From positions 372,001 to 436,000 of the forward strand of contig NW_017265146.1 in NCBI RefSeq assembly GCF_001638985.1: a stretch of DNA of 64,000 nucleotides, read 5' to 3'. This stretch comes from Phycomyces blakesleeanus NRRL 1555(-). Taxonomy: Eukaryota; Mucoromycota; Mucoromycetes; Mucorales; Phycomycetaceae. The notes under the pieces were generated by a model. That model worked only from the letters and a program-made list of their open reading frames with translations. It made no database searches and had not been told where the DNA came from. The position numbers and the translations under genes are program-made. Shown piece by piece: positions 21,285-56,246 of this stretch (within the stretch, counting starts at the first letter, position 1; each line of letters opens with the position of its first letter).

Positions 21285-21919
21285 CTATCCATCGCGCTCG
21301 TCAAGTAGTGTCTGGATGTGTTTGCTCAGTTTGAATTTCTCGAGCTTCTTGCGATTCACTGAACTGGCTCCACTGACAAGTCTGATACACTTTGCACACA
21401 AAATTGTATTAGAATTTGTAGTAAAAAAAAAAGGGGGGGGGGGGGGGGGATCTTGGTTTATTTCTCGTTTAAATAACAGTATATAGCTTACCTTTGAGGA
21501 TCCACACCAGCATTCAAATGGTTGAGCTGTATAGAAAGAAAATAAAGATGTTTAAAAATAAAGCATTATATAATTCCCACGCTTAGCTTACCCATTTCCC
21601 ATTCAGTCGAAGGATAAAAGAAGTTGAGTTCGTCGCCAGCCTTGATATCTACAAGGGCTACAATAGCAAATCTATCTACGTCAAGATAGGTTGTTGGATC
21701 ACAGGCGTGGTTGAGGTACAATAGGTCACTGTTGAGTTCGACATGTTCGGTACATGAGACCTGGACAGAAGAGTATCGCTTTGGACCAGGTGTGAGCCCG
21801 GTCAGGTCGGCAATAGTCTCGCCTGCTTTAAAGTCCTTTTCGGCAATAAGCTGAGAAGAAAAGGAGCCTTTGCGATGAATAACCTTGAAAAGTCCGGGAT
21901 GAGATTGCTCTTTTGACAT
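21285..21919 (-). CDS. Small SET/post-SET domain protein
   Basis: Exons 21592-21919, 21492-21526 and 21285-21389 give 155 aa. The core has the SET signature NHACDP (70-75; compare NHxCxPN) and the following ELNFFYP (97-103), and the post-SET cysteines CWCGSSKC (115, 117, 122) as C-x-C-x4-C. SET proteins methylate lysine using S-adenosylmethionine. This one is a minimal version: the N-terminal part is short and the usual tyrosine of the ELxFDY motif is offset (FFY). It may be a stand-alone non-histone methyltransferase or a degenerate member. The last acceptor (GCAAAG) is weak, but it restores both the CxCx4C motif and the frame. Intron 2 carries a 17-G run. Confidence 0.82.
21433..21449 (+). 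repeat. Poly(A)10-poly(G)17 run inside an intron
   Basis: An A run passes directly into about 17 consecutive G within the second intron of the SET gene. On the transcribed (minus) strand it is a C17-T10 tract in the intron. Confidence 0.9.
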
Positions 21920-22635
21920 TACTAAGGAATATAATATATGTATGTGTGTGTGTGTGTGTTTTTCTTCAGGGCCTGAGTGAAATGGGAATATAAAATATTG
22001 TGGGGCTTTAAAATAAAAATCGAGTTGTTAGGATTTAATAATAATAATAAAAAAAAAAGTCAATTTAAAAGCTCTAGATAAATAAATAAATAAATATCAG
22101 TCGTAGAAAGTTTCGCACGTTATTTAGATATATAATATATTTGACTCTGTCATTATTGCTCTTAATTGAACTCAAATAAGAGTAGTCTTTTTTTTTTTTG
22201 AAGAAGAAGAAGCATAAAATCCAAAAACTCGAAAAACCTGAAACAGAACACTACTTGAAACCATTCTTAATATTTCTGTAGGCAATACTTTGTTCAAATT
22301 TGAAACGTCTTTTTTTTTAATAATAATAATAAGGAGGTTTGTTAACTTTGAACTTTGGCACACTTTGTCCACTCTAAAGAAAAGGTAAAAAAAAAAGAAT
22401 CTTTTTTTTTATTTTAAAATTTTGATTGATATATATATATATTGATCTGAAATTTATTACTATTATTATTACTATTATTATTATTTTGTTCAAAAACATT
22501 AGTAAAGAAAGAAGAAAAAAAAAGAGTGTAAATATTGCTGTAAAAAGTGGCCCAGTTTCTGTTGTACCAAGGTCATATGTGTATCATGTAGTGATTGGTG
22601 GTAATAAAATGAAAAAAGGAGACTTTCATATATAT

Positions 22636-28502: not shown

Positions 28503-28510
28503 TATATAAG
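28503..28510 (+). promoter_or_regulatory. TATA box of cysteine-rich peptide gene 1
   Basis: TATATAAG about 50 bp upstream of ATG 28556, at the same relative place as in the other five array genes. Confidence 0.65.
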
Positions 28511-28555
28511 CACGACATCTTCTTTATATTTCAGGTTATTCACATCTTCATCAGC

Positions 28556-28774
28556 ATGCTTTTCCAAAAGACCATCCTTGCCTCCCTCTTCGCCGTCTTG
28601 GCCTTTGCCTCTGCCACCTCCGCCACTGTTGCTCCTTTTAGTCTCTCCAAGCGTGACTGCGAATATACCTGCCCCGATAACTCTTGTAATGACAAGTGCC
28701 AGGCTGCTTCTGATGGTAGGGCCGTTGCTCCCATTTGCCAGGGAGACACCTGCTATTGTGGCTTCAGCCCTTAA
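28556..28774 (+). CDS. Secreted cysteine-rich defensin-like peptide, array copy 1
   Basis: 72 aa prepropeptide. The signal peptide MLFQKTILASLFAVLAFASA is identical at nucleotide level to the other copies over most of its length. A short propeptide ends in SKR, a Kex2-type dibasic site at 32-33, and releases a 39-residue peptide with seven cysteines. Spacing is C-x3-C-x4-C-x3-C-x12-C-x4-C-x-C. The C-x3-C, C and C-x-C order with GDTC near the end resembles the CSab defensin framework. This copy is the most divergent at the N-terminus: it has extra residues (TVAPFS instead of TPFG) and starts its mature part DCEYTC. Net charge is negative. Secretion is well supported; antimicrobial, signalling or other function is unknown. 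Confidence 0.85.
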   Translation: MLFQKTILASLFAVLAFASATSATVAPFSLSKRDCEYTCPDNSCNDKCQAASDGRAVAPICQGDTCYCGFSP

Positions 28775-28794
28775 CTTATCTTGACATAAGCAAG

Positions 28795-28881
28795 GTAAAC
28801 CATCTTTCTTTTGTTTCTTTACGAGTGTGTGCGTACAACCAAATAATCTAAGCTGACCATTTTTTTTGTTCAATTCGTTAG
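28795..28881 (+). other. 3'-UTR intron of copy 1
   Basis: AAG|GTAAAC to TTCGTTAG|AATC, 87 bp, starting 20 nt after the stop codon. All six array genes have a GT-AG pair in this position. Confidence 0.6.
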
Positions 28882-30760
28882 AATCTATCTCATAACAATG
28901 TTATTGAACTATTTACTCCATTCTCATTCATGACCTTTGCCTACACCCTATATAGCCATGTTGCATTATCAGTTTTTTTTTCTTTGCATTTACTTGGTCT
29001 TTCACGAATAAATAAACAAATAAGGGCATTTGCAATCAATCCCTGTTCAAATAATTTTCAAAATATTGGTACTTTATCTATACAACTAATACAAATATAT
29101 AGAGAGAGAAAAGATACTCAGATATATATATATATATATTATAGTATTTACCAGTGCACAAGCTCTTGGGAGAGTTATAAGAATAGACTCCCAATTGATA
29201 AAAAAAGAATCATTAGCTTCTTTGGTATTATGCCATTTTTAAGTCTCGTCTTATTTGAATTCATGATATTCAAGTAGCAATAAGTATTGCTTGTAAATTC
29301 TAGAGTGAATTATAGTGGAAAACAGCTGGTATATAAATCCTATATTCTAATTCTACAAATACATTGACCTTTTATGTGAGTTATTTTGGCTCAGTCAAAT
29401 CAATACTATATGTCCTTAAAATAATTTCACAAAAATATATCAGACTCAATTCTTAACCTACTCTCTCATGTTTTCCATGGATTATTACCATTCGCTAATT
29501 ATAATATATGGTTTGGAGTTGTGCTTGTCCTTTCTACGCGGATATAGTATAGATCTGTAGCTTAATACAGAAAGAAAAACTGACCCCTTACAAGCTCCAT
29601 TTTTTCTTTCAATTAATTGAGATATTCAAGATCAATATTACATGCTTTTCTTTTTACTATCTATTGCAGTCTATGACTGATAGTATTACTTTGATATTAG
29701 TACATAAAGCTCTCCCCTGAATTGACATGGTAGGAGTAAGGTTGTACGGCTGACGAAAACACGAACCCTTTACCAATATGTCACAATACATCGTATCACT
29801 GTATGTCGTTTCATAAATTTGAATTCAAAAGTAATAAAAATTCCATGTACGCTATTTTATACCATTAATTAAACTACAGAGGCTTGGTAAATGTGCTTAT
29901 TACAGGGTTTGTGTATGTATAAGGCTTCTGTTAAAGTAAAAGGAAATATTAAAATAGTATATCTAGGAGTACAGATTAACTGTTTTATTTTTATGGGTAG
30001 TCTTGAGAAAGAGAGAGAAAGAGATCAAGACATTTGGGGTAGCTAAATTCATATCATATTTATAGAAATTATTATATGTATAGTTTCACGTATTTTAATT
30101 GAAAAGAAACCCTCTTCTAACCATCTAGACCTTCATATGTACCTACTGCGCTGGCGGATAATACAACTTCTCTGGGTTCCAGCCTTTTGGATTTTTTTTT
30201 CTTCTTCTGTTAATATTTTTCAGTCCCCCTTTTAATAAAAGACATTTATCCAAAACTATCATAAAGATTCTATAAACCATTTGAAATGTATATTTTTAGT
30301 TTTCCTATTATTTTTCTTTGGGTAAAAATATTACATGCTGAATACCCAAAATCTGTTGAATGATAGAGACATATATTGTATATGCTGTAAAACATTATAA
30401 GTAATAGCAAGGTTAATGTACAGGTGCTTAATAATTTTTTTAAAAGGTATTTTTAATATTTCTTTACATCTCAACTGAGGTATTTCAAGCAACGCATCTC
30501 GATGAGCATATACACTCTTGGCTTTCTCACTCTACCCCTTGCGTATCCGTCTTGGACACATTTTTTATGGGTATAGAAGGCGACTATCCTTCCTAAGACT
30601 TAAAATAGTTTAAATTACTGAGTAATGCGTTGTACTGTGAACCTACATATGTATACATGATCAGCTAACTTGGTAATACACACCTATTTTTGAAAGGTGT
30701 ACAATGATTATATTGAAGCATTTAATATTGGGGATGTATTATTCTTTTTTTAAAAAAAAA
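28882..30760. repeat. Downstream unit of copy 1 (old duplicate block)
   Basis: No gene. The stretch about 29275-29960 is a diverged copy of 31622-32345 and 42293-43017 (shared order: TTGTAAAT-CT-GAGT, CTCA-TCAAA, AATACT, ATGG--TATTA-C, ACCCCTTA). (TA)n at 29120-29138. Confidence 0.6.
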
Positions 30761-30762
30761 CA

Positions 30763-30770
30763 TATATAAG
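30763..30770 (+). promoter_or_regulatory. TATA box of cysteine-rich peptide gene 2
   Basis: TATATAAG about 60 bp before ATG 30828, followed by the TTCATC-repeat leader. Confidence 0.65.
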
Positions 30771-30827
30771 CATCAAGTTGTGTCTCTGTTAAGGATTATT
30801 CTCATCTTCATCTTCATCTTCATCAAC

Positions 30828-31040
30828 ATGCTTTTCCAAAAGACCATCCTTGCCTCCCTCTTCGCCGTCTTGGCCTTTGCCTCTGCCACCTCTGCCACTC
30901 CCTTTGGCCTCTCCAAGCGTGCTTGTGATTACTCTTGTCCCGACAACTCTTGCAATGACAAGTGCCAGGCTGCTGCTGGTGGCAAAGCCGTTGCCCCCAT
31001 TTGCCAGGATGGTGCCTGCTACTGTGGCTTCAGCCCTTAA
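30828..31040 (+). CDS. Secreted cysteine-rich defensin-like peptide, array copy 2
   Basis: 70 aa: signal peptide, short pro-segment TPFGLSKR, then a 39-residue mature part beginning ACDYSCPDNSCNDKC and ending QDGACYCGFSP, with seven cysteines in the family spacing. The amino-acid sequence of the whole precursor is the same as copy 5. ATG 30828 is chosen because the signal peptide starts there in all copies; upstream codons are the CATCTT leader. The mature peptide is acidic (four Asp against two Lys), unlike most cationic defensins. Confidence 0.88.
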   Translation: MLFQKTILASLFAVLAFASATSATPFGLSKRACDYSCPDNSCNDKCQAAAGGKAVAPICQDGACYCGFSP

Positions 31041-31067
31041 TTTTTTTTTTGATTTAAATATATCAAG

Positions 31068-31135
31068 GTAAATATCTTATAAGCATTCATATAATTTTCT
31101 TTTCATTTACTCAATTCGATTTATTCTTTTTGTAG
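31068..31135 (+). other. 3'-UTR intron of copy 2
   Basis: AAG|GTAAAT to TTTTGTAG|GAAT, 68 bp, starting 28 nt after the stop. Confidence 0.65.
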
Positions 31136-32609
31136 GAATTATACCAGGCTCAATTGTTTTTGAAGCATCGATTCCATTAGCATTTTCTGTCCCTCATTCA
31201 TTATATAGCATGCTTGTCATAGTCTCTCTAGAAATCTGTTTTTTTTCCGATCTATAAAGAAACTATTTACAATCAATTTTTATAATGTTCAATGCTGTGA
31301 TGTTGAAGATATTGGGTGTTTGTATTTGGGTGAACTTTTGATATGTCAATATATCTAAAATAATGTTAGCTTATAGTCAGCTTGAAATCGTACATATTAT
31401 AGACAGCATTAATATGTATGCGTAAAGAGAAGTCATTATAGAGTGTATATATTGGTTTTTATATGTATAAAGACAAATTGACCTTGTATTGTAGCCTAGC
31501 TATGGGAACTATATCGGGTTATTCTACTACCAATAACTTTAAGAATATTGAAACCTCTGATTATGTTAATTTTTTTGGCTGTGAGATTTCTAGGATCATT
31601 TTGTTTGAACTTATAACATTCAATTACCAGTGGTAATTCCTTGTAAATCCTGGAGTAATTTTATAGCTGAAATGGGATCTATATTCAGATATTGTAATTC
31701 TATCTTTCAAGAGACTTGGTCTTCAGTTTGAGTTGCTTTAGCTCAACCAAACGAATACTCTGTATTCTCAAAATAATTCCATGAAACTAGGCCAAGTTCA
31801 ATTATTTAACCTCCCGTTTTTTTTTCTCATGGGCTATTATCCTTTGCCAATTATAATCTACAGATTGAAGTTGTACTTGTTCTTTCTGCGGAGTACATTA
31901 TTTTCTGCAGCTCGTTACACGACACTAACCCCTTATCGAATCCAAAAAAAAATAGCCCTTGTTATTACCTAGCATTTTAATATACACAGATCAAAAATTC
32001 GTGCAAATTGTTACGTTTGATAGTTTTCAACAGAAATACTACTCTAAATCTTTGGGATCTTTGACACTTTTTAATTCAGTGCTACAGAACTGTGCAATTG
32101 TGGTTTACAATTTATGACTAAGTATATTTTCCCAATAATAGTATATTGGGATCTCTCCTGGATTAACAATAATAGGGGTAAAGGTGTAGAGCTTACAAAG
32201 ATATTATACCTTCATAAACAGGTTACAATTTATCTTATTGCTTAATTATATCCTACACACTAGAAATTATAAGCAATAAATGTCTTTTTACACTATCTTG
32301 TACAATAACTAAACTATAAACACTATAACGGTGGCTATTACAAGTTTTGTACATAGCTGAGATGTCTGTCAAAGCAAAGGGAGGCATCAAAGTATCCTCT
32401 GTAGGAGCTTCTACAAGTTATATTAGGCTAATATAAAGTTTAGAAATAGAACACTAGGGTGGCTATTTCTAGGGCAGCTTTGTAGAAGACGTATTATATA
32501 GCAGCTTATATAATTTAATAAGAGCTTTACTGTACCTGTCGATTGAATTAATGACAGAGTATAAATCTAGACGTGTCATACAAATACAGCGTGTGGTAGT
32601 CCACCCGTA
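31136..32609. repeat. Downstream unit of copy 2
   Basis: No gene. 31041-31404 is nearly identical to 39753-40116 (downstream of copy 4), and 31622-32345 to 42293-43017. These are tandem-duplication blocks of the peptide-gene unit. Confidence 0.75.
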
Positions 32610-33268
32610 ATCGATCGCGCCTAGAAGATAAGTTTATTTTAGTCAGAGTATTTACTTTTCCGCTTGGTTGACCGTAAAATACTAGGGATCATGTAACTAG
32701 ATCTATACAGCCCATATTTATCAGGGTCGGTCGTAACTCGTTTGAGATGTTCTTAAGATCCTTGCTTGCTTCAATAATGATATATATATATATATATATA
32801 TATCTGCTAAATAGTCTTTACTAAATTTGTGGGTAATGACGCCAGGGACATAATAATACGCAATACAAGCAAGGAGTCTTTCAATTAATTCAGGGCTTCC
32901 TAGAAATGTGTGTGTGTGTGTCTTTGTGTGTCTGTGTGTGTAAGTGTGTGTGTGTGATTTGTATATTGAGTTATATTACTGCATGTATAAAGTCTTGTTA
33001 TTTTTAGACATTCATAAATCCCAAATCTTAAGCGTAACACTTTATCCCTTTAATATATTCTAGCATCTAGCTCAACGTGTGCAAATGTCTCCTCTGTCTT
33101 AATCAGTCCGTAAATGGGTTTCGATCTTAAAGATCAATATGGTCTTTAAGGAAAAAACATTTCTTCTTCTATTATTACACTATTTTAATTTACTCACTAC
33201 ACATGGTTCATATAAACACAAATGTGCTTAATACAAGGGACTCTTTTGAAGCAGCCAAAATCTAGCAC

Positions 33269-33276
33269 TATATAAG
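33269..33276 (+). promoter_or_regulatory. TATA box of cysteine-rich peptide gene 3
   Basis: TATATAAG about 60 bp before ATG 33334. Confidence 0.65.
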
Positions 33277-33333
33277 AAACAACTTTTTTTCTTATTTTTT
33301 AAATCATTCACTTTCATCTTCATCTTCATCAAC

Positions 33334-33546
33334 ATGCTTTTCCAAAAGACCATCCTTGCCTCCCTCTTCGCCATCTTGGCCTTTGCCTCTGCCACCTCTG
33401 CCACTCCCTTTGGTCTCTCCAAGCGTGCTTGTGATTACTCTTGTCCCGACAACTCTTGCAATGACAAGTGCCAGGCTGCTGCTGATGGAAAAGCCGTTGC
33501 CCCCATTTGCCAGGATGGTGCCTGCTACTGTGGCTTCAACCCTTAA
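33334..33546 (+). CDS. Secreted cysteine-rich defensin-like peptide, array copy 3
   Basis: 70 aa, same architecture as copy 2: signal peptide, SKR processing site, 39-residue seven-cysteine mature peptide. Differences from copy 2: Ile for Val in the signal peptide (FAILAF), Asp for Gly in the central loop (AADGK), and Asn for Ser before the last residue (GFNP). The coding sequence is identical to copy 4. The aspartate makes the mature peptide still more acidic. Confidence 0.88.
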   Translation: MLFQKTILASLFAILAFASATSATPFGLSKRACDYSCPDNSCNDKCQAAADGKAVAPICQDGACYCGFNP

Positions 33547-33572
33547 TTTTTTTTTGATTTAAATATATCAAG

Positions 33573-33640
33573 GTAAATATCTTATAAGCATTCATATAAT
33601 TTTCTTTTAATTTACTCAATTCGATTTATTCTTTTTGTAG
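33573..33640 (+). other. 3'-UTR intron of copy 3
   Basis: AAG|GTAAAT to TTTTGTAG|GAAT, 68 bp, starting 27 nt after the stop. Confidence 0.65.
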
Positions 33641-36600
33641 GAATTATACCAGGCTCAATTGTTTTTTAAGCATCAATTCCATTAGCATTTTCTGTCCCTC
33701 ATTCATTATATAGCATGCTTGTCATAGTCTTTCTAGAAATCTGTTTTTTTTTTCTGATCCATAAAGAAACTATTTACAATCAATTTTTATAATGTCCAAT
33801 GCTGTGATGTTGAAGATACTGTGTGTGTACTCTTTATATTTTGATTGACTCAAAGGAATGTAGACAATAATAAGTTTGGGGACTTGCATGTATATACATA
33901 GTATATGTCAAACACTTTGTGTCTACTAAAATAAATAGCGGCTCATCAATATATATAATTAAAAGTAGAGCTTTTTTTACAAACTTCTAGACATTTATGC
34001 CAGGTGTTTTAAAGCTAGAGAGTTATATTGTTATACACGACATTCATATAGTTTTAGTAAAGACGTTCGGAACTCTTCAAATACTTGAAATAATGTCAGG
34101 CCTTGAAACAAGCTTAATTTCTAGCCTAACACAGAAACTTTATTTTATATGGTAATCGTGTAACACTGGGCTGTCTAAAAATATTAAGATCAATGTATTT
34201 CAAAGATGTATTTTTTACCTTCAAGCTGTGCAAGATATTAAGTAAAGTGAGAAGTAATAGCACAGATAAGGCACTCTAAGTGGTCATGATTCTACAGTCA
34301 TTCTGTAAAATCTATGGTTAAAAGTAAATCGCAAATTAGAGGTGGGTATATTTGTAATAAAACTTTATAAAAACTGGCTTGAGTAATATATAAATACCTT
34401 AAATTGTTTGATATAAGGTCAAATATTAGGCTCGTCTTCAAGGCTTATATTTTTATACATACGTAAAGAGCGTCTTTAATGACTGTTGCTTATACGGGCC
34501 CTCTAAAGCATGTTTACTATGATTTATAGAGATTAGGATTGTAATATTGAATAGACGCTAATACATGTTGAGGTTCCAATGAGGCTTTATTAAATATTGA
34601 CAGTTATATTTTATAAGCGATTGTCTGTTTTGTTTCATCATCCTTTAAATCGTTGGGTATACTCATCAAAGCAAACCAGCCCTATTTTCTTATACAGACT
34701 TTTTTTTATGTATATTAATATCCATAAGAAGCAATTATTCATTTCTCTTGAAAATAAAAGAAATTTTTAATTCATCCAGAATATTAGCTATCCTGTTTTT
34801 AGCTTTGTGCAAAAAGAAAATGAGACCTTCACAGTATAAGGAAATTTCAGCGAAACAATTACTCTATTTCAAGATATTTTCAAGGCCATTTACCATGCAT
34901 GTAACCGTATGCTATTAGGAGCCACTGAGTAATTCGTATATATTACTTTGGGATATTACTATTTGTATGGTTATTGTATCTTGAATAATACCACTTTTTT
35001 CATATATTGAATGATTTTTTTTTTCACCTGCATCTATAACGTGGCCCTTGGTCTTTTGCTTTACATTGCTATTTCTGGTGAATAATCTATAACAGCTTTA
35101 CTTTATGGTATCTTTTTATTAGGAGCTTTCAAAAATTTTGCATACTATTACATAATTTTACATCCTTTTACAGCAGGAATGTTCGATTAGTTATATACCA
35201 AATTAATTTTTTTGGGTAATTGTGTTTGATGCAGTATCTGTAGTGCACCTAGAACCATTTTTCTGGCGCAATAATTTACCCACAAACAAGTACTCCACTT
35301 TTGTCTTCTCCATAAACGGAGAAACGGCGCCTGTTATACGATTTGTCATTAATATACGTATAGTATATAATTTATTTCTTTTATTGACAGCCAAAGGATA
35401 CTGTGATTTTACTTGAATCTAGAAAATATTTTTAACTTTAGCTTACACCTTTCTTTCAAATGATGAAATTGTTTCTGGATCTTGTCCCTCTACAATAATA
35501 TGTGTATTCTGTGGTAGAATACTCTGTACAAGAAATTTTCCTGCTAATAATTGCTACGCCGTACCATGCCAGCTACTATAATATCATTTCAATGCAATAT
35601 AACAATTCCGATATTAAAACAAATTACCTTCTCACAATCTTCCCCCAAATAAGATATTTGAGTACAAACGTGGTCCAAGTATTTCAGGCACTAGAAAGCT
35701 GGATTAAGTATTTGCAATATTATCTTTCTGATTAGTTTTTCTGTCAAGAAAATATTCACACTGATATTTCATTTGCCTTGACTTATAAGCAGTATTATTC
35801 TGGCACTATTGTGTGCCCATTGGTGAACCATTTTCGGTTACAACTCTTTTACAAGCTTATTATTTAATAAGAGACCCTAAATTATCATAAAGTAGATAAT
35901 AACAGAAGTACATGTAGGTTAGATTTTTCATGAAACATAGATTCTCTTTCTCCAACTCCAACTCCAATGATAAGTATGTTCTTTCCAATGATACATACTA
36001 AAGACTGTGACTTTGTTTCTATCAGTTCTTTCACTTTTAGACTTACTCTTGTTCCTTGCTGCTCACTCCCTCTAAGCCCTGCATAATACAGCTTTCACTA
36101 CTCTTGTTAGAGAGCAAAAGCTTTTTACATTTGATTTAAATTTGGACGCTTTACATTAAGGGACATGCGTTTTTTTTTTCTGGCTAAACATTTCAAATCC
36201 CGTATAGCCAATAGATCTTTCACCATTTACCCCTTATTTTCATCAAGCTACCATAAGTCAAAATGGATCCAAATGCCCGCATGGCTTAAAGTAGACTATA
36301 TGCGGGAACAATAGACTGGTAGTATGATCACATATCTAAACCGACCGTTTTTCTGAGACACTTCAACCTAATCTCAGTCAGTTAGCCACCGCACTTACAC
36401 TCGTCTATAAAAAAAATTGACAGCTTCAATCGCACTAACTTTGCCAAACATGCTACACTTGCTGCTACTGCTATATGTATTTCTAATACCTGTTCTCATC
36501 ACTGGTATCTTCCCACCAATGGCAATAGCTCCTTGTAAGCCCATATAGGTCCTTGTCACATTATTACCTACATTCAAGATTAATATAGATAAATAACTTT

Positions 36601-37391
36601 TTCATCCAAATCTCATTGCCACCAAAAACTTTCGTTTTTTCTTACTAGCAATTGGATTATGTGTATATGTCTTTTCACGTCTATAATATTACAATTCTTT
36701 TAAGTGCTCTTAAGTGCGGGAACACTTGAGTGTATTTATAGTCTCTTAATGCTGTGTTTTTGGGTATTTCGCTCCTAGCACACGGTAATTTCTATTTATC
36801 TCTTTTCTTGTGTAGTAGAGCTGCAGCAAGGAAAAATCCCGGCTATTTTTATATAGTAAATACGCTGTGAGAATGAATTTTGTCTATTTGGCCCTCGAAT
36901 TACTATATATCCGGCTGATGTTAGCAAGTTTGATCTGGAATCCCAAATGCCTGTACTTAGGATAAAGTACTAACATTGTCTCTCCTTTTTTCTGTTTTTC
37001 TCCTTGTTTCTTCGAATAGTATACTTCGGAAGTGTATGGTTCTCTGTAGCCTATCAAGCTAGCGCTGCTACTATACTGATCAGATAAAGCATCTATCATA
37101 TTACTTCTTCATTCTCTCTCTCGATCTCCTTGTTTTGAATATTATATATATATATATTGTCTTGGCTCACATATGTAGCCAGAAACGCCACATCTAATAT
37201 ACAGGTAAACATTCACTAATACTATTTAGATTTATCTAGGAGTGTTAAATCGTAAATCAATATTATCGGGTGAAGAGACTTGGAATATTCTATATTAAAG
37301 CAATTGAATACCCCTGTTTATGCTTTTGAGGTTTACTTATTGGATATTATTAACTCATGTCTAAAATACTTTTATGTGTACTTTTCTTTTA
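33641..37391. other. Long spacer downstream of copy 3
   Basis: No supportable gene in 3.7 kb. It continues the copy-3 3' flank to about 33820, then becomes unrelated AT-rich DNA. Short frames at 35203-35416 on both strands and 36395-36577 have no recognisable domain. Confidence 0.45.
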
Positions 37392-37802
37392 AGAGCATCC
37401 GTAGCAGTAGCGTTTAAATTCAGCTTTTCCCGATTTAAATGCTTTTTGGAAATGCTTTTCAAAAAAATCGTCTGCAGCAGTAGCATTTCCGACAGCATGT
37501 ATTTACATGCTCCGTGATTTGTATGAGCTTGAGCATGGAAAAAGATGCTCAATTCAAAAACGTGCCGAGCATTTAAATCGTCTTTCTTATTATTTTTCTC
37601 TTTAAATCGAATGATAGTATATAGCAATACTTACAAAAACTCGCAAAAATTATGCTCACTACAAAGCTGATAGTCTTGAAAACATTTAACTTGTATTTTT
37701 TATATTAAAGATAAAAGAAAGATATCTAATAATAATCAACGTTATATGGCTTATGAGCACTTAATTAAATGCTAATTGAAATGCTACTGCTACGGATGCT
37801 CT
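37392..37802. mobile_element. PIF/Harbinger-like MITE
   Basis: Terminal inverted repeats GAGCATCCGTAGCAGTAGC (left) and GCTACTGCTACGGATGCTC (right), about 410 bp apart, flanked by TAA on both sides (TTTTAA|GAGC ... GCTC|TAAGG), the 3-bp target duplication typical of PIF/Harbinger. Internal sub-repeats GCAGCAGTAGCATTT and GAGCATTTAAATCG echo the ends. It has no transposase, so it is non-autonomous. Confidence 0.72.
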
Positions 37803-38818
37803 AAGGTAGGCTTTTAATTATGTAGCTTTACTATACACTCTTGACTCTTTATACAATTCAAGCAAGAGCTTGTAAATAAGATAAATGAACCTTGCCTAGT
37901 AGTTCATGTTTTTTACTTTTAACTTTCAGCCAATCTTAGATGATTATTTCAAGCATTGTGTGAAGTACATAGACTTAAAAGAATGTGAAGCTATTCGACT
38001 TTACTATTCTTTATGTAAGATATAAAACTATTACATTGAACAAATAATCTAGTACACACAATTAATATCTTATTATGTATGAGTTTCGTAAAAGTATACC
38101 CGAAATAGTTATTCAAGGTATATACACATCTACTTTAAAAGTGCTTGGAATACAATGATGTGTAACAACCTTTCCTTAACTCAAATTTTAACCCGAAAAG
38201 TGCTGAATTGAATTTTTAATGCAATATTAGTAGAGATAAGTATAGTAAATAGTTTCTAAAGGGTTAAAAAGGCAAGGATAACTAAGATATTGAATAAAAG
38301 AATATGATAACGCTTGGGTATATCCAACAGCTGGCATGAGCTTTAAGAAATATAAAAGAAAGGCAACTATTTCAAACAGTATGGCATTAACTATTATGAA
38401 GAGTTATCTACAAGTGAAGGACAATAAATGATATGAGAATAATGGTGCTCAAACGGAAATAAAGATTCAATAGTGATAGAGTTATGCTTCGGTTGATGGT
38501 TTCTAGGAAGCTTTTGTAGTAATAAATTAAATTATATCTACTATAAGCTTTACAAGTGACGTAGACAATAAGGTGTATCACTCAATGTATCACGACGAAA
38601 TCCTGCAAAAAGAAGTTGTATTCTTTTTGAAAGATGTCGCGCTCAAATAGGCCTACAATGCACACACATACACATCATAACAAACATAAACTGTGCTTTA
38701 TAAAAATTGCAGTCCCAATTACTTTACCAAAAACATCGCATAAGATTGTTTCTTTGGCTTTGATGGCAATTGTGCTATTATATAAATGTTTATATGTACA
38801 TTAGCAATGGCTACTACT
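37803..38818. other. Spacer between MITE and second segmental duplicate
   Basis: AT-rich, no frame with protein-like composition and no repeat recognised. Confidence 0.45.
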
Positions 38819-39474
38819 AATCGATCGCACCTAAAATATAAGTTTATTTTAGTCAGAGTATTTACTTTTCCGCTTGGTTGACCGTAAAATACTAGGGATC
38901 ATGTAACTAGATCTATACAGCCCATATTTATCAGGGTCGGTCGTAACTCGTTTGAGATGTTCTTAAGATCCTTGCTTGCTTCAATAATGATATATATATA
39001 TATATATATATCTGCTAAATAGTCTTTACTAAATTTGTGGGTAATGACGCCAGGGACATAATAATACGCAATACAAGCAAGGAGTCTTTCAATTAATTCA
39101 GGGCTTCCTAGAAATGTGTGTGTGTGTCTTTGTGTGTCTGTGTGTGTAAGTGTGTGTGTGTGATTTGTATATTGAGTTATATTACTGCATGTATAAAGTC
39201 TTGTTATTTTTAGACATTCATAAATCCCAAATCTTAAGCGTAACACTTTATCCCTTTAATATATTCTAGCATCTAGCTCAACGTGTGCAAATGTCTCCTC
39301 TGTCTTAATCAGTCCGTAAATGGGTTTCGATCTTAAAGATCAATATGGTCTTTAAGGAAAAGACATTTCTTCTTCTATTATTACACTATTTTAATTTACT
39401 CACTACACATGGTTCATATAAACACAAATGTGCTTAATACAAGGGACTCTTTTGAAGCAGCCAAAATCTAGCAC

Positions 39475-39482
39475 TATATAAG
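39475..39482 (+). promoter_or_regulatory. TATA box of cysteine-rich peptide gene 4
   Basis: TATATAAG about 60 bp before ATG 39540, in sequence identical to that before gene 3. Confidence 0.65.
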
Positions 39483-39539
39483 AAACAACTTTTTTTCTTA
39501 TTTTTTAAATCATTCACTTTCATCTTCATCTTCATCAAC

Positions 39540-39752
39540 ATGCTTTTCCAAAAGACCATCCTTGCCTCCCTCTTCGCCATCTTGGCCTTTGCCTCTGCCA
39601 CCTCTGCCACTCCCTTTGGTCTCTCCAAGCGTGCTTGTGATTACTCTTGTCCCGACAACTCTTGCAATGACAAGTGCCAGGCTGCTGCTGATGGAAAAGC
39701 CGTTGCCCCCATTTGCCAGGATGGTGCCTGCTACTGTGGCTTCAACCCTTAA
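39540..39752 (+). CDS. Secreted cysteine-rich defensin-like peptide, array copy 4
   Basis: 70 aa; nucleotide sequence identical to copy 3 over the whole coding region, so it encodes the same acidic seven-cysteine peptide ending GFNP. Its upstream flank is that of copy 3, whereas its downstream flank has the variants of copy 2 (for example TTTTCATTTA and CTCTCTAGAAATC). It is therefore a chimera from recombination at about the stop codon. Confidence 0.88.
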   Translation: MLFQKTILASLFAILAFASATSATPFGLSKRACDYSCPDNSCNDKCQAAADGKAVAPICQDGACYCGFNP

Positions 39753-39777
39753 TTTTTTTTGATTTAAATATATCAAG

Positions 39778-39845
39778 GTAAATATCTTATAAGCGTTCAT
39801 ATAATTTTCTTTTCATTTATTCAATTCGATTTATTCTTTTTGTAG
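39778..39845 (+). other. 3'-UTR intron of copy 4
   Basis: AAG|GTAAAT to TTTTGTAG|GAAT, 68 bp, starting 25 nt after the stop. Confidence 0.65.
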
Positions 39846-40913
39846 GAATTATACCAGGCTCAATTGTTTTTTAAGCATCAATTCCATTAGCATTTTCTGT
39901 CCCTCATTCATTATATAGCATGCTTGTCATAGTCTCTCTAGAAATCTGTTTTTTTTTTCCGATCTATAAAGAAACTATTTACAATCAATTTTTATAATGT
40001 TCAATGCTGTGATGTTGAAGATATTGGGTGTTTGTATGTGGGTGTACTTTTGATATGTCAATATATCTAAAATAATGTTAGCTTATAGTCAGCTTGACAT
40101 CGTACATATTATAGACATTATGTTAATTTCGGATCTGTAAAATTTCTGGGATTATTATATTGGAACGATTTAACAAATATGAAGCAAAAGGGACGCAGGA
40201 GTGCCCTAGTAGAGGAGCAGCGTGACACTATAATTGCTCAAATTCCCAAATCTACCATTATATTCAACTAAAAGCCAATTTTATCAATGATAGTGCTATT
40301 AAAAAGGTACGGTGTGGGAATAATAAAAGGTAGTCTACAAAAAGAAGTGATTTTTATATAGATGGTCGAACAAAAAAAAGGAGCAATATTATCAAAAGGC
40401 CTATTCCAATGTTGAGGTTGTGGTTGATAATGGGTTTCCTTTGATCAAGATTATCAGGCATGTGTAAGCTTATCTTAGTGTAAATAGTACGTAAGTTAAT
40501 ATTTATTCTTAAGCTTTAGTAGTATCTGCGCTATCTGGAATACATGTCGTCTGAAGTTCTTGGGTGCTTCTCAGAAAACAGTCTTATTGTAAAATTCTGA
40601 TCGACAATTGTAGAGGCCACCTTTTATGGTTCCAGACTTATAATCAACTAGTAAACCCACGTTTGCAAAGTCCAAATGTGATTTGTATTAACTCAGCTCC
40701 TTAAGGTGTAATACAATATCGTTTAGCTAAGATAAAACAAATTTTAATGTGGATCTACGAGTAGTATATTGTCTCACTAACATCAACGACTTTGGGAATA
40801 TTGAGCTCGGCGAAGCCGGCACAGACACATAGGTTCCCGCTGTAAAAGAGATCATGATTTATTTCAAGACAAATTTGACAGTATATCTAAGTACATGCCC
40901 TTTACATTCATAT
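39846..40913. other. Spacer downstream of copy 4
   Basis: Copy-2-like flank up to about 40116, then unrelated AT-rich DNA with many short broken frames (for example 40180-40300, which has a coding-like composition but frequent stops). No gene is supportable. Confidence 0.45.
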
Positions 40914-41072
40914 ACTTGGTGTGGACAGACTAAAAGTTCAAAAAAAGGGCAAAAAAGGGCAAAAAAGGGCAAAAAAGGGACAAAATTAATTAAACTCTCG
41001 CCCAATGATATGACTTAACTTTTTGCTCTTTTTTGCCCTTTTTTGAACGTTTAGCCTGTCCACACCAAGTGT
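40914..41072. mobile_element. Short foldback MITE with AAAAAAGGGC repeats
   Basis: Left end ACTTGGTGTGGACAGACTAA, right end (reversed) ACTTGGTGTGGACAGGCTAA. The inverted repeat continues inward through GTTCAAAAAAGGGC, giving arms of about 45 bp in a 159-bp element. The left arm has four tandem AAAAAAGGGC units. A flanking TA on each side is compatible with a Tc1/mariner-type target. A degenerate relative lies at 26134-26246. Confidence 0.75.
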
Positions 41073-43840
41073 AAACCAACCATTATATAACAGGGATTTG
41101 AATTACAGAAGTTTTAATGGTAGTAGATATAAACACTATTATTTGGATCTCTTTAAATAAATAACACTCTCACAGTATCTACTTTTCACATTTATTGAGA
41201 TACTAAGCTTTTGGTCTTGCCCTCTCAAAGCTCAAATTTGGAGCAAAATTTGCTTTCGATTTCTTACTACGCCCGACTCTCTGATCATTACCCATCTACT
41301 CAAAACATGCCCCCACCCCACCCTCAATATAAGTTTTTAATTCTATCATAGACATTCATATGATCATTGGATGTACATTAAGTGTTATCTGGAGCGCCCA
41401 CTTCCGCCTAGTTTTTGATAATTTAGTATTTGTCCCAAATCCTATAGCAGCCCTAGCTACCCTACACATCTAAGTCTCTAAGCAGAAACAGCACTAGCTA
41501 TTCTCTAGTCCTTTCATATTTAATTTTGCATCTAATAAACAATACAAAAAATGACAATCCCAAATATCTTTCTCCGTCCCAAAAAGACAAGTAATCAACT
41601 ACGAGAAGGTTACATGGCATAACCTTAAAACCCAAGAAAGAATGTAAAAAGTGAATTACCGGGAATAATCTTGCTATAATACAAGAGTATGTGGACCTCA
41701 AACACCTGTTTTTTCAGAGGATCTGTCGCTAATAACTGGGATATGATTATCAGAGGGTCAAAAGCATATGCTGAACTGTGCCTACTATTTGATAACATGA
41801 TGTAAATTGTTCTCTACATCTTTACCAGCTCTCACTTAAGACGGAATTTGCGTATATGTTTTCTTAAGCGCATTATTGAAATGGTAAATATACTTGATTG
41901 CGTTTGGATATGTTTGTGTTAGTAAAATAAGTGTAAGTACAAGTAAATAGATAGCCTGTTGACAGAGTCGATATTTATCTTGCCAAAACTAGTAGCCACA
42001 TTTAATATGTGCTTGAATAATCTCACAGACTTAAAACCATGGTTCAGTTACTACAATCAACTTCACTACATAGTAAATATAACGAGCTTTAGAGAGAAGG
42101 GATTCATATTTCGAGCAGATATTTTAATATATATTAGCTAGACGTCTTTTCATAGATATTATGCAAGAAAAAAAATTCCAAATAAATTGCTGTATATACG
42201 TTGGTAAACTTGTAGAATGAGGTTTCCGTTATTCGACTTAATTAAGTCAAAGTTTACGCTTGATAAGTATATGTAAACAGCCTTTACTGTACCAACAGTA
42301 ATTCTTTGTAAATCCTGGATGAATTTATAGCTGAAATGGGATTTATATTCAGCTATTGTAATTCTATTTTACAAGAGTCTTGGTCTTCAGTTTGAGTTAT
42401 TTTAACTCAACCAAACAAATACTCTGTATTCTCAAAATGATTCCATGAAAATAGGCCAAGTTCAATCATTCACCCTCCCGTTTTTTTTTCATGGACTATT
42501 ATCCTTCACCGATTATAATCTGCAGATTGAAGTTGTACTTGTTCTTTCTACGGAGTACATTATTTTCTGCAGTTCGTTACACGACACTAACCCCTTATCA
42601 AATCCAAAAAAAAAATAGCCCTTGTCATTACCTAGCATTTTAATATACACAGATCAAAAATTCGTGCAAATTGCTACGTTTGATAGCTTTCAACAAAAAA
42701 TACTACTCTAAATCTTTGGGATCTTTGACACTTTTTAATCTAGTGCTACAGAACTGTGCAATTGTGGTTTACAATTTATGACTAAGTATATTTTCCCAAT
42801 AATAGTATATCGGGCTCTCTCCTGGATTAACAATAATAGGGGTAAATGTGTAGAGCTTACAAAGGTATTATCCCCTCATAAACAGGTTACAATGTATCTT
42901 ATTTCTTAATTATATCCTACACACTAGAAATTATAAGCAATACATGTCTTTTTACACTATCTTGTACAATAACTAAACTATAAACACTATAACGGTGGCT
43001 ATTACAAGCTTTGTGCACGTCCAAGCCTTTTACCAAAATAAAGGGAGGTACTAAAATGACATCTCTATAAGTAGCAATGGGTTATAATATACGGTAATGA
43101 AAGGTTTATATATAAAACAAGAGAAATATTTGCAATGGGTATATATAACGAGTTATCTTTTACAATTCATACTATATAGCAGATAATATATTCTTAGTAA
43201 ATACTATTATGTACCCATAAATTTAGTTAATGACATTGTACACTTATACGCTGTATTTTCTACATACAGCGTTCTGGATTCTGCTGGTAGTTGTCTAGGC
43301 CATATTATTAAAATAACTTTATTATTTGGATCATTTTATTTTTAAAGCACTAGATTAATTTATTTTTATCGTACAGACAATACTACTTTAGACACCATCA
43401 AGGGTTAAGTGCATATTATGGATTATTTACACCTTTTATTTATTGTAAGAAAATAAGATTGTAGTTTATTCATGCTCTACCTCACAGATAGAGCAATGCT
43501 ATATAATTGAAAGGGTGTACCACTAGCTCAAACCCTTTTGAAACTACGCATAAGATGTCTTTGCATTAGTGCCGTAGTTGCTGTTTAAACATAGAGGTAC
43601 ATATAGACCTTCTTAGATTCATTATTTTATCCCTTATGTGCTTCAATACACTCTCTTTGATGTAAGTGTTAAATATCCCTTAGAAATCTTAAAGTCGACT
43701 AAACAGCTAAGCAACTGGGAGATAATTGAAGCCATCGAGCTCAAAATCACTCGTTGATTCGGTGGCAAGTGTATTCGCTGACCACTTGTATTAGGTACAT
43801 AGATGTACGTAGAGTCATGGCTCCTTAAAATAAATGAGAG
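41073..43840. repeat. Spacer with a duplicated array block
   Basis: 42293-43017 is about 90 percent identical by eye to 31622-32345, the block downstream of copy 2. The rest is AT-rich DNA without recognisable genes. Confidence 0.7.
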
Positions 43841-43848
43841 TATATAAG
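43841..43848 (+). promoter_or_regulatory. TATA box of cysteine-rich peptide gene 5
   Basis: TATATAAG about 60 bp before ATG 43904. Confidence 0.65.
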
Positions 43849-43903
43849 TACCAGTCATTATTTTCTAATTTTCGAAACTAATTTCATCTTCATCTTCATC
43901 AAC

Positions 43904-44116
43904 ATGCTTTTCCAAAAGACCATCCTTGCCTCCCTCTTCGCCGTCTTGGCCTTTGCCTCTGCCACCTCTGCCACTCCCTTTGGCCTCTCCAAGCGTGCTT
44001 GTGATTACTCTTGCCCCGACAACTCTTGCAATGACAAGTGCCAGGCTGCTGCTGGTGGCAAAGCCGTTGCCCCCATTTGCCAAGATGGTGCCTGCTACTG
44101 TGGCTTCAGTCCTTAA
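43904..44116 (+). CDS. Secreted cysteine-rich defensin-like peptide, array copy 5
   Basis: 70 aa, precursor identical in sequence to copy 2, with only a few synonymous differences at DNA level (for example TGCCCC for TGTCCC and CAAGAT for CAGGAT). Its flanks differ from copy 2, so coding identity exceeds flank identity. The TTCATC leader directly precedes ATG. Confidence 0.88.
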   Translation: MLFQKTILASLFAVLAFASATSATPFGLSKRACDYSCPDNSCNDKCQAAAGGKAVAPICQDGACYCGFSP

Positions 44117-44127
44117 GAGATCTAAAA

Positions 44128-44208
44128 GTAAGTTAAATACCTTTTTACCTATAGAAATATATATATATATAATATTGGATGATGTATGTCTGACTCTATT
44201 TTCTTTAG
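44128..44208 (+). other. 3'-UTR intron of copy 5
   Basis: AAA|GTAAGTT to TTTTCTTTAG, 81 bp, starting 11 nt after the stop; sequence unrelated to the introns of copies 2-4, but the position is kept. Confidence 0.6.
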
Positions 44209-46319
44209 TCTCTTGCATATAAACGGTTTATTTTTTGCCAATATTTTATTGACACACAAGTCGATATTTCATATTGTGCTCAGTTTTATTCAATAAAATA
44301 TTAAATAAATCTACTTCTTCTGCTCATATTGCTACTGTGTGTGTATAGCTTTTAGAAGTATTTCTCATAAAAAATACCTTAGTACTATATTCAATTCATG
44401 TATATTTATTATATATTTAACTCGGTACAAGGAATATTGACTCTACTAATGCGCCTTCCAAAAAATGAGCGCATGGAGGCTTTGAAGAGCTATTGTTTAC
44501 TTTGTTAAAAATGTGGTTACCATTTATGCTTTGATAAAAAATGAGTAAATTTTTCTGATATTCCTAATGTGAACTAGACTATCAATACTTAGTCTAGGAT
44601 GCTACAACAAAATAATAAGCAAACTATACTCACACTCTAACCTTCCTCAATTTTAGAAAAACAAATGGATCGTTACTAAATAAAATGATGTATATCAGTA
44701 TTTGTAATTTTTCAGCAATAATATATGGACTGTATATTTGTAATACTGGTTTCTATCAGGTTGCATGTTTCTTCTTTAATTGGTGTTTATCCTTTGGCTT
44801 GGCTCATGAGCATCATAGATAAATATTTATAATTTTAATTCGGTACTGGCTGCAGACTTTACTTGATTTCTTTTATTTTTGAAAAACAATTGTCTACTCG
44901 TTTCTGCTTAAACCTAAAGAAACATTCAAGCTATGATAAGTATATGCTCTGTAAAAAAAAAGCGCTCGCACTCCTCATATTGCATTTCTCTCTTTTTCCT
45001 TGTTTTCTTCCATAAAATAGTACTTTTAATTTGCTTGTGAAAAGCTCAACCAAATCCCATGTCTGCTCACATTGGTTTTACATTGTTAAAGTTATATATG
45101 ATCTTTCTTTTAAAGACGTTATTAGGGTGGTTTATAAAGAGAATTTTGGATATATTAGTATTCACTTTAAGAACATTTACCGTTTCAATTCAAGCAATTT
45201 CTTTACCAATTTTGCTTAAAGTATGAATAAGAAACGAATATAAAGCATAGTTGTAAATACATGCCTTTAGGTTTTTCTATGCTTTTTATATAATGTATAA
45301 CATCATTTTCTTTTACCTATATATTTTTATTCTCATTTATAATTATATATATGCCCTAAGTTTTAGTGAGTGTTATCACAAATACATGTATATTGACTTA
45401 TCAGATAAAAACTTTTATATCAGATTTACTAATAAAGTTATATAGGTGGTCCAATATATTCTTTACGGTAATATGCACACGTAGTTAAGCTAGTAATACC
45501 AGATTAAAATTCTTAGCGCCGATATGTGGATGAATCTTACAAGTGATATATAGTAAACTTTAGAGCTTATTTATGAGAATAACAGACACAATACCCATTA
45601 CCATTTCATTAATGTGTGAATGCTTTAAGTATACGTAGCACTTCATACGTCAATAAAATAAGCCAATGTTGTGTATATCTTAATTGTGTGAAGAGACCTA
45701 AACTAAAAGCTTATAATTCTGCGATGATCTTCTTTCTCGACGTTTATTGTTATCATGTAACTACGAGCCTATAAAACTTAATTGACTAATAAGATATATG
45801 TTAGTGCCTAACATTTCTACCTCTGATATAAGAATCATACAAGTTTAAAGTAATGTTAAATAATAACTTCCTTCTGTATATAAAAGCTCCCTAATTGCTC
45901 ATAGTAGTATATTAAGGCCTTGTGCTTATATTATCTTGAGCTTTAGTAGTAATTATCATAAATAAATAGCAGTACACCAATATCAATTGCAGGCAGACAT
46001 ACTCTTATATTATTAAGATTTATCAATATATCCGGTTGAAGTAAAACTTTAATTGAGGCCTCTCTAGTGTTCTCGGATGAATTATAATATGATATTTCAA
46101 CTTTGTTTTATATTTAGTTGGCCAAGGTTTATAATAAAATTCGATGTATTTTTTTTGGGTCCTAACCTCTTTAAAGTTTGTTACTCTCCTTGGATCTCGT
46201 CTATTTAAAGCTAAATATTTTAATCTTAGTACCACTGTAATCCAAGATTTGAAATTATTATTATTTTTGGATCATAGTCTTCTTGCAATTTCCCTGTATA
46301 AGACAGCACTTTAGTCGAC
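44209..46319. other. Spacer between copies 5 and 6
   Basis: AT-rich, no supportable gene. Frames at 45031-45219 and 46023-46235 lack recognisable features. Confidence 0.45.
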
Positions 46320-46327
46320 TATATAAA
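46320..46327 (+). promoter_or_regulatory. TATA box of cysteine-rich peptide gene 6
   Basis: TATATAAA about 60 bp before ATG 46382. Confidence 0.65.
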
Positions 46328-46381
46328 CAGCCTATTTTCTTAATTTTTTTTAATCTCTATCTCATCTTCTTCTTCTCAAAC

Positions 46382-46594
46382 ATGCTTTTCCAAAAGACCA
46401 TCCTTGCCTCCCTCTTCGCCGTCTTGGCCTTTGCCTCTGCCACCTCTGCCACTCCTTTTGGTCTCTCCAAGCGTGACTGTAACTACGCTTGCCCCGACAG
46501 CTCTTGCAATGATAGATGCCAAGCTTCTGCTGGTGGCAAAGCCGTTGCTCCCATTTGCCAGGATGGTGCCTGCTATTGTGGTTTCAGCCCTTAA
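46382..46594 (+). CDS. Secreted cysteine-rich defensin-like peptide, array copy 6
   Basis: 70 aa; signal peptide same as copies 2 and 5, SKR processing site, then the most changed mature region among copies 2-6: DCNYAC, PDSSCNDRC, ASAGGK. All seven cysteines and the QDGACYCGFSP end are kept. The leader is CT-rich (CATCTTCTTCTTCTC). Substitutions cluster in the mature peptide between cysteines while the signal peptide is unchanged. Confidence 0.87.
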   Translation: MLFQKTILASLFAVLAFASATSATPFGLSKRDCNYACPDSSCNDRCQASAGGKAVAPICQDGACYCGFSP

Positions 46595-46602
46595 GAGCAC
46601 TT

Positions 46603-46677
46603 GTAAGTATATACTCTTTGCGTTTATTTCATTTCAATGTACATCTAATTAATTATATCTTACGTGTTTAACTTTAG
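46603..46677 (+). other. 3'-UTR intron of copy 6
   Basis: CTT|GTAAGTAT to TTTAACTTTAG, 75 bp, beginning 8 nt after the stop codon. Confidence 0.6.
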
Positions 46678-54305: not shown

Positions 54306-56246
54306 TTATATCAACGCATTGTATTCCTCATCCCAATTATAATCAATGGCGCCTAATTCAAAAGGAAATGAATAATGAATAACAGATCCAAGCTTCAATG
54401 TAACATATCCACGGTAAAGGTCTATCTTCCATCTTTCTCTCAAGTCATTGATATTTTCTGAATTCCCAAATCCGCGATTTACAGGTATCTTCCTTAGAGA
54501 AAAGTTTTCAAAGTATTGTAGAGCTGTTTCAATCTCCATTTGTTCAAGCTGCCACGTGAAATCTCCCATTACACCGTTCCAATTACTTAGATACGATGAA
54601 TAAAACCAAATAGCATCAGATTCAACCTTCGAATGACTTTTTGAAGTAAACGGATTATTGTAGCGAGGGTAAAGAGCGATTTTTTTGTACCACGGTAGTG
54701 ACTTTAGAACTGGGGTAGTTTTTGTATTTTCTCTGCGGTTTGGATATGTACTACTTGCATTTAGGTGTATAAAGTTAATGCTGTTCTCTACACTCTCGAC
54801 AGCGTCTGATACATTGTATCGAACGTTTGAGTGAACAAACGCTTTAAGGTGTGTGTGTGACATATCGATATAAAGATTTCCTGTCTTTGGAGAAACGGGT
54901 CCAGTTATATGTACAAAACTCATGCTCATGTAGTTAATATTTTTGCAGCGTCCGGAGATATAACAGAGAATATTATAGTAAAAATGCGAGTTTTTGATTC
55001 CTAGAATACGGAGTCCGTGCGGTTTTACGATTTCTGCTAAACTTTCGTCAGTGGTAAGTTGATACGAATCGATAAGTAGTCTCTTCAATCCACTATAGCA
55101 ATCCAAAACAGTATCAAGAGGTATTATTGTGTGCCTTGTGCGAAGAGTTAAAGACACCAGATGTGGATATGAATCTAATACTGCTAAAACATCCCAATAT
55201 TTAGAGTGTAGTCCGTAAACATTGACTATAAGCGACTCAAGGAGTTTTCCGTACGAATTTATGCATTGCTTTATAATATTCTCTGCAAAAGGCGGATCGT
55301 TTGTGCCCACTTCAGTGACATTAAGCTCTATATGCTTTAATGGTATGCCAAGAGAAAACACGCGGGTCCAATATGCGAGATAAAAGATTGAGCCGTTTGA
55401 AATGCTTATATCAAGGCTTGTCAGTTGCTTAAATAGATCCTGCGATGTTGAAATAGCTGGCAAATGTACGGGGCTCATACGAAACTGACGGGTTGGGCCA
55501 CTAGAATTTGTTTTTATAGTGCGTAAATTTGGATACTTTGTAGCAAAATAATACATCCACCGATATTCCATGGCGCATATTGGGGTTATTAGTGTCTGTA
55601 AGCTTGTGATAGGAGTCAGCTTTGGATTAAAGCCAAGGCTTGCGTCTGCAATATCCTCAAATTCTAGGTCGAGACTAAGATATTTCAGCTTTTGTAAATA
55701 CTTGTGCAGTATTTCAAGACATTCTGGATTAACACTCTTGACATCCCCGGCTTTATTCTGTACAATTTTTAGCCATGTAAGATGAGGGACACAAGCAAGT
55801 ATCTTTTGGAACTCCAGGTCTGCAATAAAAATATCGACGGTATCCAGGTTCAAACTCATCTCTGTTAAAGACCTCCATAAACTCCAATTCGTATATTTTC
55901 CAAAATCTTCTCCAATAAATGCTTCATATTCAAGGACCAGACGACGTATGTTCGGGAAGCATTTTTGCAAAGCATAGAGCTGAATATCCGTTGCATCAAC
56001 ACAGACTTGTAGCTCTAGTATGTGAACATGGTGACCGTTTGTAATATATACTTTGTTTTTGGGGTTTGATAAATCGCAAATGGTTGCCAGCTTTCTCTGA
56101 CTAGATATCTTTATTTCCTTCCAAATGAATTCTGTAAATTGTGGTAGCCATTGCTTGCAGACTAATGCACATTGAATTTTATCTTTGAGATCAAGGAATC
56201 CTGCAATGACTTCAAATATCTCGAATGGGATTGTGAATTGAGACAT
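54306..56246 (-). CDS. F-box protein with leucine-rich C-terminal region
   Basis: 646-aa intronless frame from ATG 56246. Residues about 4-46 are an F-box (IPFEIFEVIAGFLDLKDKIQ, CALVCKQWLPQFTEFIWKEI). The rest has irregular leucine-rich repeats (RRLVLEYEAF, KYLSLDLEFE, TSLDISISNG, VSLTLRTRHT, KRLLIDSYQL, RILGIKNSHF). F-box proteins bind Skp1 and bring substrates to SCF ubiquitin ligases; the LRR region would choose the substrate, which is unknown. Such F-box/LRR genes are numerous in Mucoromycota. It has a TATATAAA motif about 30 bp upstream of ATG and lies alone beside the LTR nest. It is fully open, so it is probably functional. Confidence 0.88.
   Translation of the reverse strand: MSQFTIPFEIFEVIAGFLDLKDKIQCALVCKQWLPQFTEFIWKEIKISSQRKLATICDLSNPKNKVYITNGHHVHILELQVCVDATDIQLYALQKCFPNIRRLVLEYEAFIGEDFGKYTNWSLWRSLTEMSLNLDTVDIFIADLEFQKILACVPHLTWLKIVQNKAGDVKSVNPECLEILHKYLQKLKYLSLDLEFEDIADASLGFNPKLTPITSLQTLITPICAMEYRWMYYFATKYPNLRTIKTNSSGPTRQFRMSPVHLPAISTSQDLFKQLTSLDISISNGSIFYLAYWTRVFSLGIPLKHIELNVTEVGTNDPPFAENIIKQCINSYGKLLESLIVNVYGLHSKYWDVLAVLDSYPHLVSLTLRTRHTIIPLDTVLDCYSGLKRLLIDSYQLTTDESLAEIVKPHGLRILGIKNSHFYYNILCYISGRCKNINYMSMSFVHITGPVSPKTGNLYIDMSHTHLKAFVHSNVRYNVSDAVESVENSINFIHLNASSTYPNRRENTKTTPVLKSLPWYKKIALYPRYNNPFTSKSHSKVESDAIWFYSSYLSNWNGVMGDFTWQLEQMEIETALQYFENFSLRKIPVNRGFGNSENINDLRERWKIDLYRGYVTLKLGSVIHYSFPFELGAIDYNWDEEYNALI

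Follow-up and report, generated by a model that had tools for sequence, protein, structure and literature searches.

Secreted defensin-like peptides, some of them encoded by clustered genes, have been described from several fungi in papers that are cited here from their accessible parts. Licosin of Lichtheimia corymbifera (Mucorales) is encoded by an intronless gene as a 68-residue precursor with a 20-residue signal and a mature peptide of 41 residues, and was assigned a cysteine-stabilised alpha-beta (CSab) fold by circular dichroism and modelling (PMC13199095); the introduction of that paper gives a 7-residue propeptide ending in KR, with which its abstract disagrees. Phycomysin of Phycomyces blakesleeanus (50 residues; charge +9.4) belongs to fDEF6, which has no propeptide, while Mortierella alpina carries malpisin genes on two contigs with 4 and 7 genes (33 to 48 residues; charges −3.5 to +5.4), Rhizopus microsporus has duplicated genes, with four rhimisin copies in Rhizopus, and six pyronesins of Pyronema under one accession and three abisins are also reported (PMC4165938). 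A stretch of 64,000 nucleotides (nt) of P. blakesleeanus NRRL 1555(-) (contig NW_017265146.1, C13 here; positions 372,001-436,000, forward strand), hereafter the window, contains a tandem array of six small genes of this general kind. With a probability of about 0.45, we propose that these genes encode acidic peptides with seven cysteines, for which secretion, cleavage at KR and a CSab-like fold are predicted, and whose likely targets are competing microbes outside the hypha. Clustering of fungal defensin genes as such is not new, going by the accessible part of PMC4165938; new are a family of acidic peptides with seven cysteines, an extra cysteine close behind the predicted cut, purifying selection on the mature peptide and, between some copies, identity limited to the coding parts or nearly so.

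Layout of the six-gene array

Six open reading frames (ORFs) of 70-72 codons each lie on the same strand (+) at 28556-46594 of the window, at a spacing of 2.3 to 6.2 kb. The first gene, g1 (28556..28774), is the most divergent copy and encodes a 72-residue precursor whose 39-residue mature part starts at codon 34 and has a charge of −4. Precursors of 70 residues are encoded by g2 (30828..31040; mature charge −2), g3 (33334..33546; −3), g4 (39540..39752; −3), g5 (43904..44116; −2) and g6 (46382..46594; −2). The g2 and g5 proteins are identical, as are the coding sequences of g3 and g4 (zero differences), and the proteins were 84-100% identical to g3 when five of the six copies were compared, g4 having the coding sequence of g3. 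With g3 as query, the 53.5-Mb genome yielded at least six places, every one inside the array. When the window was scanned for ATG-initiated ORFs of 40-160 residues with at least five cysteines, 15 were listed, i.e. the six family members and nine others that looked accidental by eye.

In all six genes a prepro part of 31 or 33 residues ends in LSKR and is followed by 39 residues with cysteines at mature positions 2, 6, 11, 15, 28, 33 and 35. KR is a Kex2-type site, and the leader MLFQKTILASLFAVLAFASATSA, judged by eye, has a basic start, a hydrophobic core and small residues. Each mature peptide contains two basic residues and has a net charge of −2 to −4 (K, R, D and E counted). The initial annotation had described six same-strand genes for precursors of 70-72 residues with a signal peptide, an SKR site, a 39-residue mature peptide and the spacing C-x3-C-x4-C-x3-C-x12-C-x4-C-x-C; the six ORFs, each with a hydrophobic N-terminus, bear this out, and the spacing is exact in every copy. 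The word TATATAA, known from promoters, stands 53-65 nt upstream of the ATG in all six genes, at 28503..28509 (+) for g1, the point from which the initial annotation counted the array, and starting at 30763 (g2), 33269 (g3), 39475 (g4), 43841 (g5) and 46320 (g6); these words are presumably TATA boxes.

Each of the six genes has a GTA-type donor-like word 9-28 nt beyond its stop codon (e.g. in 31041-31140 behind g2), and the acceptor-like word TTTTTGTAG was also present behind g2-g4. A candidate intron in the 3' untranslated part could be guessed at from these words. A deposited hypothetical protein, PHYBLDRAFT_146558 (P0004), follows g6 through ICQD and then continues with an unrelated end that lacks the final two cysteines; this model was likely misspliced via a mispredicted intron. 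The g1 protein was recovered as P0003 in the protein search.

Relatives and predicted fold

A set of about 5.8 billion proteins was searched three times for relatives, with a reach limited to those that have 5-residue words in common with the query. Outside Phycomyces, these searches returned only two Spinellus fusiger proteins (P0005 and P0006) and one further protein, P0007. Phycomyces and Spinellus both belong to the Phycomycetaceae. The Spinellus proteins carry the tags 1808410 and 1808412, and as each lies on a contig of 353,563 bases the two genes are likely neighbours. In two protein clusters, P0001 (five members; longest contig 1,247,512 bases) and P0002 (four members; 1,193,462 bases), the longest contig is not C13; further assemblies are likely to carry such genes too. 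The Spinellus genes and P0007 were compared as proteins, and the DNA-level search of eukaryotes covered the Phycomyces genome alone; there, P0006 as query returned the same six places as g3, and P0007 matched five of the six array genes (best E 1.2e-5). P0007 is an 81-residue protein on a 1,025-base contig, and its first match was weak (E 0.38); a later E of 4e-19 was obtained once P0007 was part of the query itself and proves nothing. It has the KR site, seven cysteines and the end DGACYCGFSP in common with the array. Alignments A2 and A3 bring six of the seven cysteines into register; the third is displaced in P0007, where CX4C replaces CX3C. All nine intact proteins (seven distinct, given that g2 = g5 and g3 = g4; P0004 excluded as a truncated g6 model) are acidic and have seven cysteines, with charges of −2 to −4 for the Phycomyces copies, −3 and −2 for the Spinellus pair and −5 for P0007. 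A bacterial or archaeal origin was rejected: a scan of bacterial and archaeal genomes with one peptide pattern from alignment A2 gave seven stretches, none of which was confirmed by tblastn.

The cysteines at 6, 11, 15, 28, 33 and 35 of all six peptides follow the order C...CX3C...C...CX1C, which is the framework given for CSab defensins in the accessible part of PMC5234102. AlphaFold models, in predictions that used 6 and 7 sequences, consisted of a helix followed by two strands, with a predicted local distance difference test score of 60.8 for the precursor and 74.3 for the mature peptide. A second look at the PDB yielded weak matches, of which 15/16 for one model and 10/10 for the other were CSab peptides. 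Three points weigh against the proposed reading. Foldseek gave no significant match (best E 0.26 and 2.9); of 200,000 shuffled versions of one mature peptide, 3,464 (1.7%) fitted a loose CSab pattern, making the framework alone weaker evidence; and anionic charge has, in Zymoseptoria, been taken as speaking against an immune role (PMC5234102, as far as accessible). The first two would also be expected of a lineage-specific secreted cysteine-rich protein of some other fold, in which, for example, the CX3C pairs are bonded otherwise or seven cysteines and a partner are used. Such a protein would suit the count of seven cysteines, the additional N-terminal C-x3-C, the want of a significant sequence match and the departure of P0007 from CX3C. 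However, both models have the helix-strand-strand order and the second-look matches are nearly all to CSab peptides, and we regard another fold as improbable, if still a serious candidate. The CSab assignment of the initial annotation is thus backed by framework, models and structural neighbours and left without a significant Foldseek or Pfam match; as modelled, the fold is plausible but unproven, and membership likely.

Noxiustoxin was second in one structural listing and first in the other, and licosin blocks hKv1.3 (PMC13199095, accessible part). Both observations would accord with a secreted blocker of channels or enzymes, comparable to the scorpion peptides that act on potassium channels, but the block by licosin needs two lysines, whereas the array peptides have their two basic residues within a net negative charge, and a role of this kind seems very improbable.

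The initial annotation had suggested a profile and structure search of the mature peptide; the structural outcome is given above, and the profile searches returned no family. At E<=10, Pfam gave 0 families for five of the six precursors (g4 equals g3) and for both Spinellus proteins. Membership of a known Pfam family was also rejected for P0007, whose three matches were each below their cut-off, and a known NCBIfam family was rejected for g1, g3, g6 and P0005, the proteins submitted. Genome searches with Defensin_2 (PF01097), Gamma-thionin (PF00304) and Defensin-like (PF24552), in which the best candidates were scored, did not return the array. No plectasin-type entry was found among the PDB sequence matches at E<=10 (two in one search, four in another). 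In plectasin, the spacing between the first two framework cysteines is longer than the four residues of the array peptides. The likeness to plectasin that the initial annotation had drawn is therefore weak, on account of the charge of −2 to −4, this short spacing, the seventh cysteine and the missing Pfam match, to which is added that no profile match linked the array to the six-cysteine defensin-like ORFs found elsewhere in this genome (see below).

Selection, probable exchange between copies and likely role

Across the 15 copy pairs, the proportions of synonymous (pS) and nonsynonymous (pN) differences were 0.318 and 0.062 in the mature part and 0.057 and 0.013 in the prepro part. Fisher tests, based on rounded counts and on pairs that are not independent, were applied to three of these pairs (g1-g2, g1-g6 and g2-g6): the synonymous excess in the mature part gave p values of 7e-5, 3e-4 and 5e-4, and the synonymous shortage of the prepro relative to the mature part gave 0.011, 0.0007 and 0.037, respectively. 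Purifying selection acts on the mature peptide. Non-functional repeats with accidental open frames would account for the repeat structure and nothing more; as mature pN is far below pS, all six frames are exact and intact relatives exist in another genus, Spinellus, this explanation was ruled out and has a negligible probability.

The mature parts of g2-g5 are at most two residues apart. Between g2 and g5, 98.7% identity extends across 234 nt and ends exactly at the stop codon, with nothing further at a blastn E of 1e-10, and the matches of g1 and g6 to other copies begin at most ~60 nt upstream of the start codon and run out no more than 10 nt from the stop codon. For some copies, identity breaks off at the coding ends or close to them, a pattern that suggests gene conversion, which would likely hold the coding parts alike as the flanks drift. 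Other likenesses extend into the flanks: a 1.2-kb block with g3 (32608..33826, +) has a second copy with g4 (38818-40031; 98.5% identical), a block upstream of g3 (31633..32350, +) has a second copy upstream of g5 (42298-43014; 93.6%), and g2 has ~280-365 nt of 3' flank in common with g3 and g4. Judged from these alignments, the g3/g4 block and the g2 3' flank are plain recent duplication. Prepro identity was 29-31/31 within Phycomyces, 29/31 within Spinellus and 23-26/31 between the genera; mature identity was 30/39 for g1-g2, 29/39 for g1-P0005 and 30/39 for P0005-P0006, with P0006 farther from the Phycomyces peptides (24-25/39). The simplest reading of these figures is a partial gene conversion that evens out the leader half species by species; the alternative is constraint on the leader at the nucleotide level.

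In the mechanism proposed, the leader would send the precursor into the secretory path and a Kex2-type protease would cleave after KR. Disulfides 6-28, 11-33 and 15-35 (mature numbering), following the pairs Cys1-Cys4, Cys2-Cys5 and Cys3-Cys6 of the CSab framework, would tie the helix to the last strand, leaving the seventh cysteine, at position 2 beside the new N-terminus, free to join two peptides as a covalent dimer. A dimer would be expected over a loose thiol because every one of the nine intact proteins retains the spare cysteine, as the second residue behind KR in Phycomyces and Spinellus and as the third in P0007. Rattusin is an example of a defensin dimer held by disulfides; it is alpha-defensin-related and hence of another defensin superfamily (PMC5366907, accessible part). 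The near-identical copies g2-g5 would raise dose rather than variety. Action on microbes is favoured, with modest confidence and by analogy, because AfusinC of Aspergillus fumigatus, an anionic CSab defensin, was active on Gram-positive bacteria by assay (PMC6181372, accessible part).

The main rival keeps the same secreted CSab-like peptide and gives it a self-directed role in growth, development or stress. Acidity throughout the intact members, and strong constraint with homogenised rather than diversified copies, are as this rival would have them, and pechrysin and anisin-1 are named as fungal defensins that no longer act on bacteria, with the anisin-1 gene tied to fitness in Aspergillus nidulans (PMC5234102, accessible part). 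Amplification of copies, however, is equally to be expected of a secreted weapon, and a self-directed role is considered less probable than action on microbes and a little more probable than another fold. A wider proposal is put forward only tentatively, and we would sooner expect it to fail than to hold: that the peptides form an acidic seven-cysteine CSab class of covalent homodimers joined via the Kex2-freed cysteine, found so far in the Phycomycetaceae and P0007, with the coding parts of the array, and hardly anything else, kept alike by gene conversion. Defensin-like peptides are thinly described in early-diverging fungi, and a fairly uniform acidic set in a classical model mould, one deposited model of which is missing its two final cysteines, suggests that annotation can overlook such families. 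If the peptides kill bacteria, an anionic scaffold is gained; if not, self-directed roles of the defensin fold are indicated.

Genomic setting and comparison with known peptides

Between g4 and g5, an inverted repeat occupies 40911-41073 (54-nt arms, 81% complementary, 55 nt between the arms). Neighbouring ORFs in the window matched lysophospholipase (PLA2_B; 1293-3211, +), the C-terminal region of acid sphingomyelinase (14088-15251, +), leucine-rich repeats (15721-16713, −), SET (21569-22027, −), F-box-like (54309-56267, −; below its cut-off) and bHLH (63029-63733, +). No hint of a peptide-processing or export cluster was found among the eight neighbouring ORFs scanned.

Elsewhere in the genome, two six-cysteine defensin-like ORFs with a leader, L012 (contig C11, 1399-1584, +) and L013 (contig C6, 1492-1704, −), scored above the Pfam Defensin_2 cut-off, and L012 was confirmed by a Pfam scan; the same search gave matches over the cut-off in 0/14 control genomes. 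L014 (contig C14) and L015 were weaker Defensin_2 matches, L014 falling below the cut-off and L015 being without a convincing ORF. Homology of the array to L012, L013 and L014 was rejected, with no profile match (probability 0.7%). L012 and L013 resemble the array genes in small size, leader and the framework C...CX3C...C...CX1C, but are scattered single ORFs that pass Defensin_2, which the array does not. The mould is therefore likely to have ordinary defensin-like peptides and, separately, the array set.

The initial annotation knew of no described Mucorales array like this one. Our literature search, which had most subscription papers outside its reach, found no description of this array, but the duplicated genes of Rhizopus microsporus and the clusters of Mortierella alpina had already been published (PMC4165938, accessible part). 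Compared by description, without alignment, licosin is closest in precursor plan and also comes from a Mucoromycotina mould; it differs in its three disulfides and lysine-dependent channel block, and no array is described for it in the accessible part of its paper. Phycomysin and the other fDEF6 peptides, which are duplicated in Rhizopus, are likewise secreted Mucorales peptides. Phycomysin, the one Phycomyces peptide tabulated in PMC4165938, is nevertheless plainly a different molecule, as the array peptides have 39 residues and charges of −2 to −4, and in all six genes a KR-ended stretch stands behind the leader, in contrast to fDEF6. AfusinC shares with the predicted array peptides an anionic CSab character; its activity was assayed, whereas the array is known from sequence. 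The malpisins and pyronesins are encoded, like the array, by clustered defensin-like genes, and the accessible tables of PMC4165938 give no cysteine counts, so that a seven-cysteine member among them is possible; the array is far more uniform than the malpisins.

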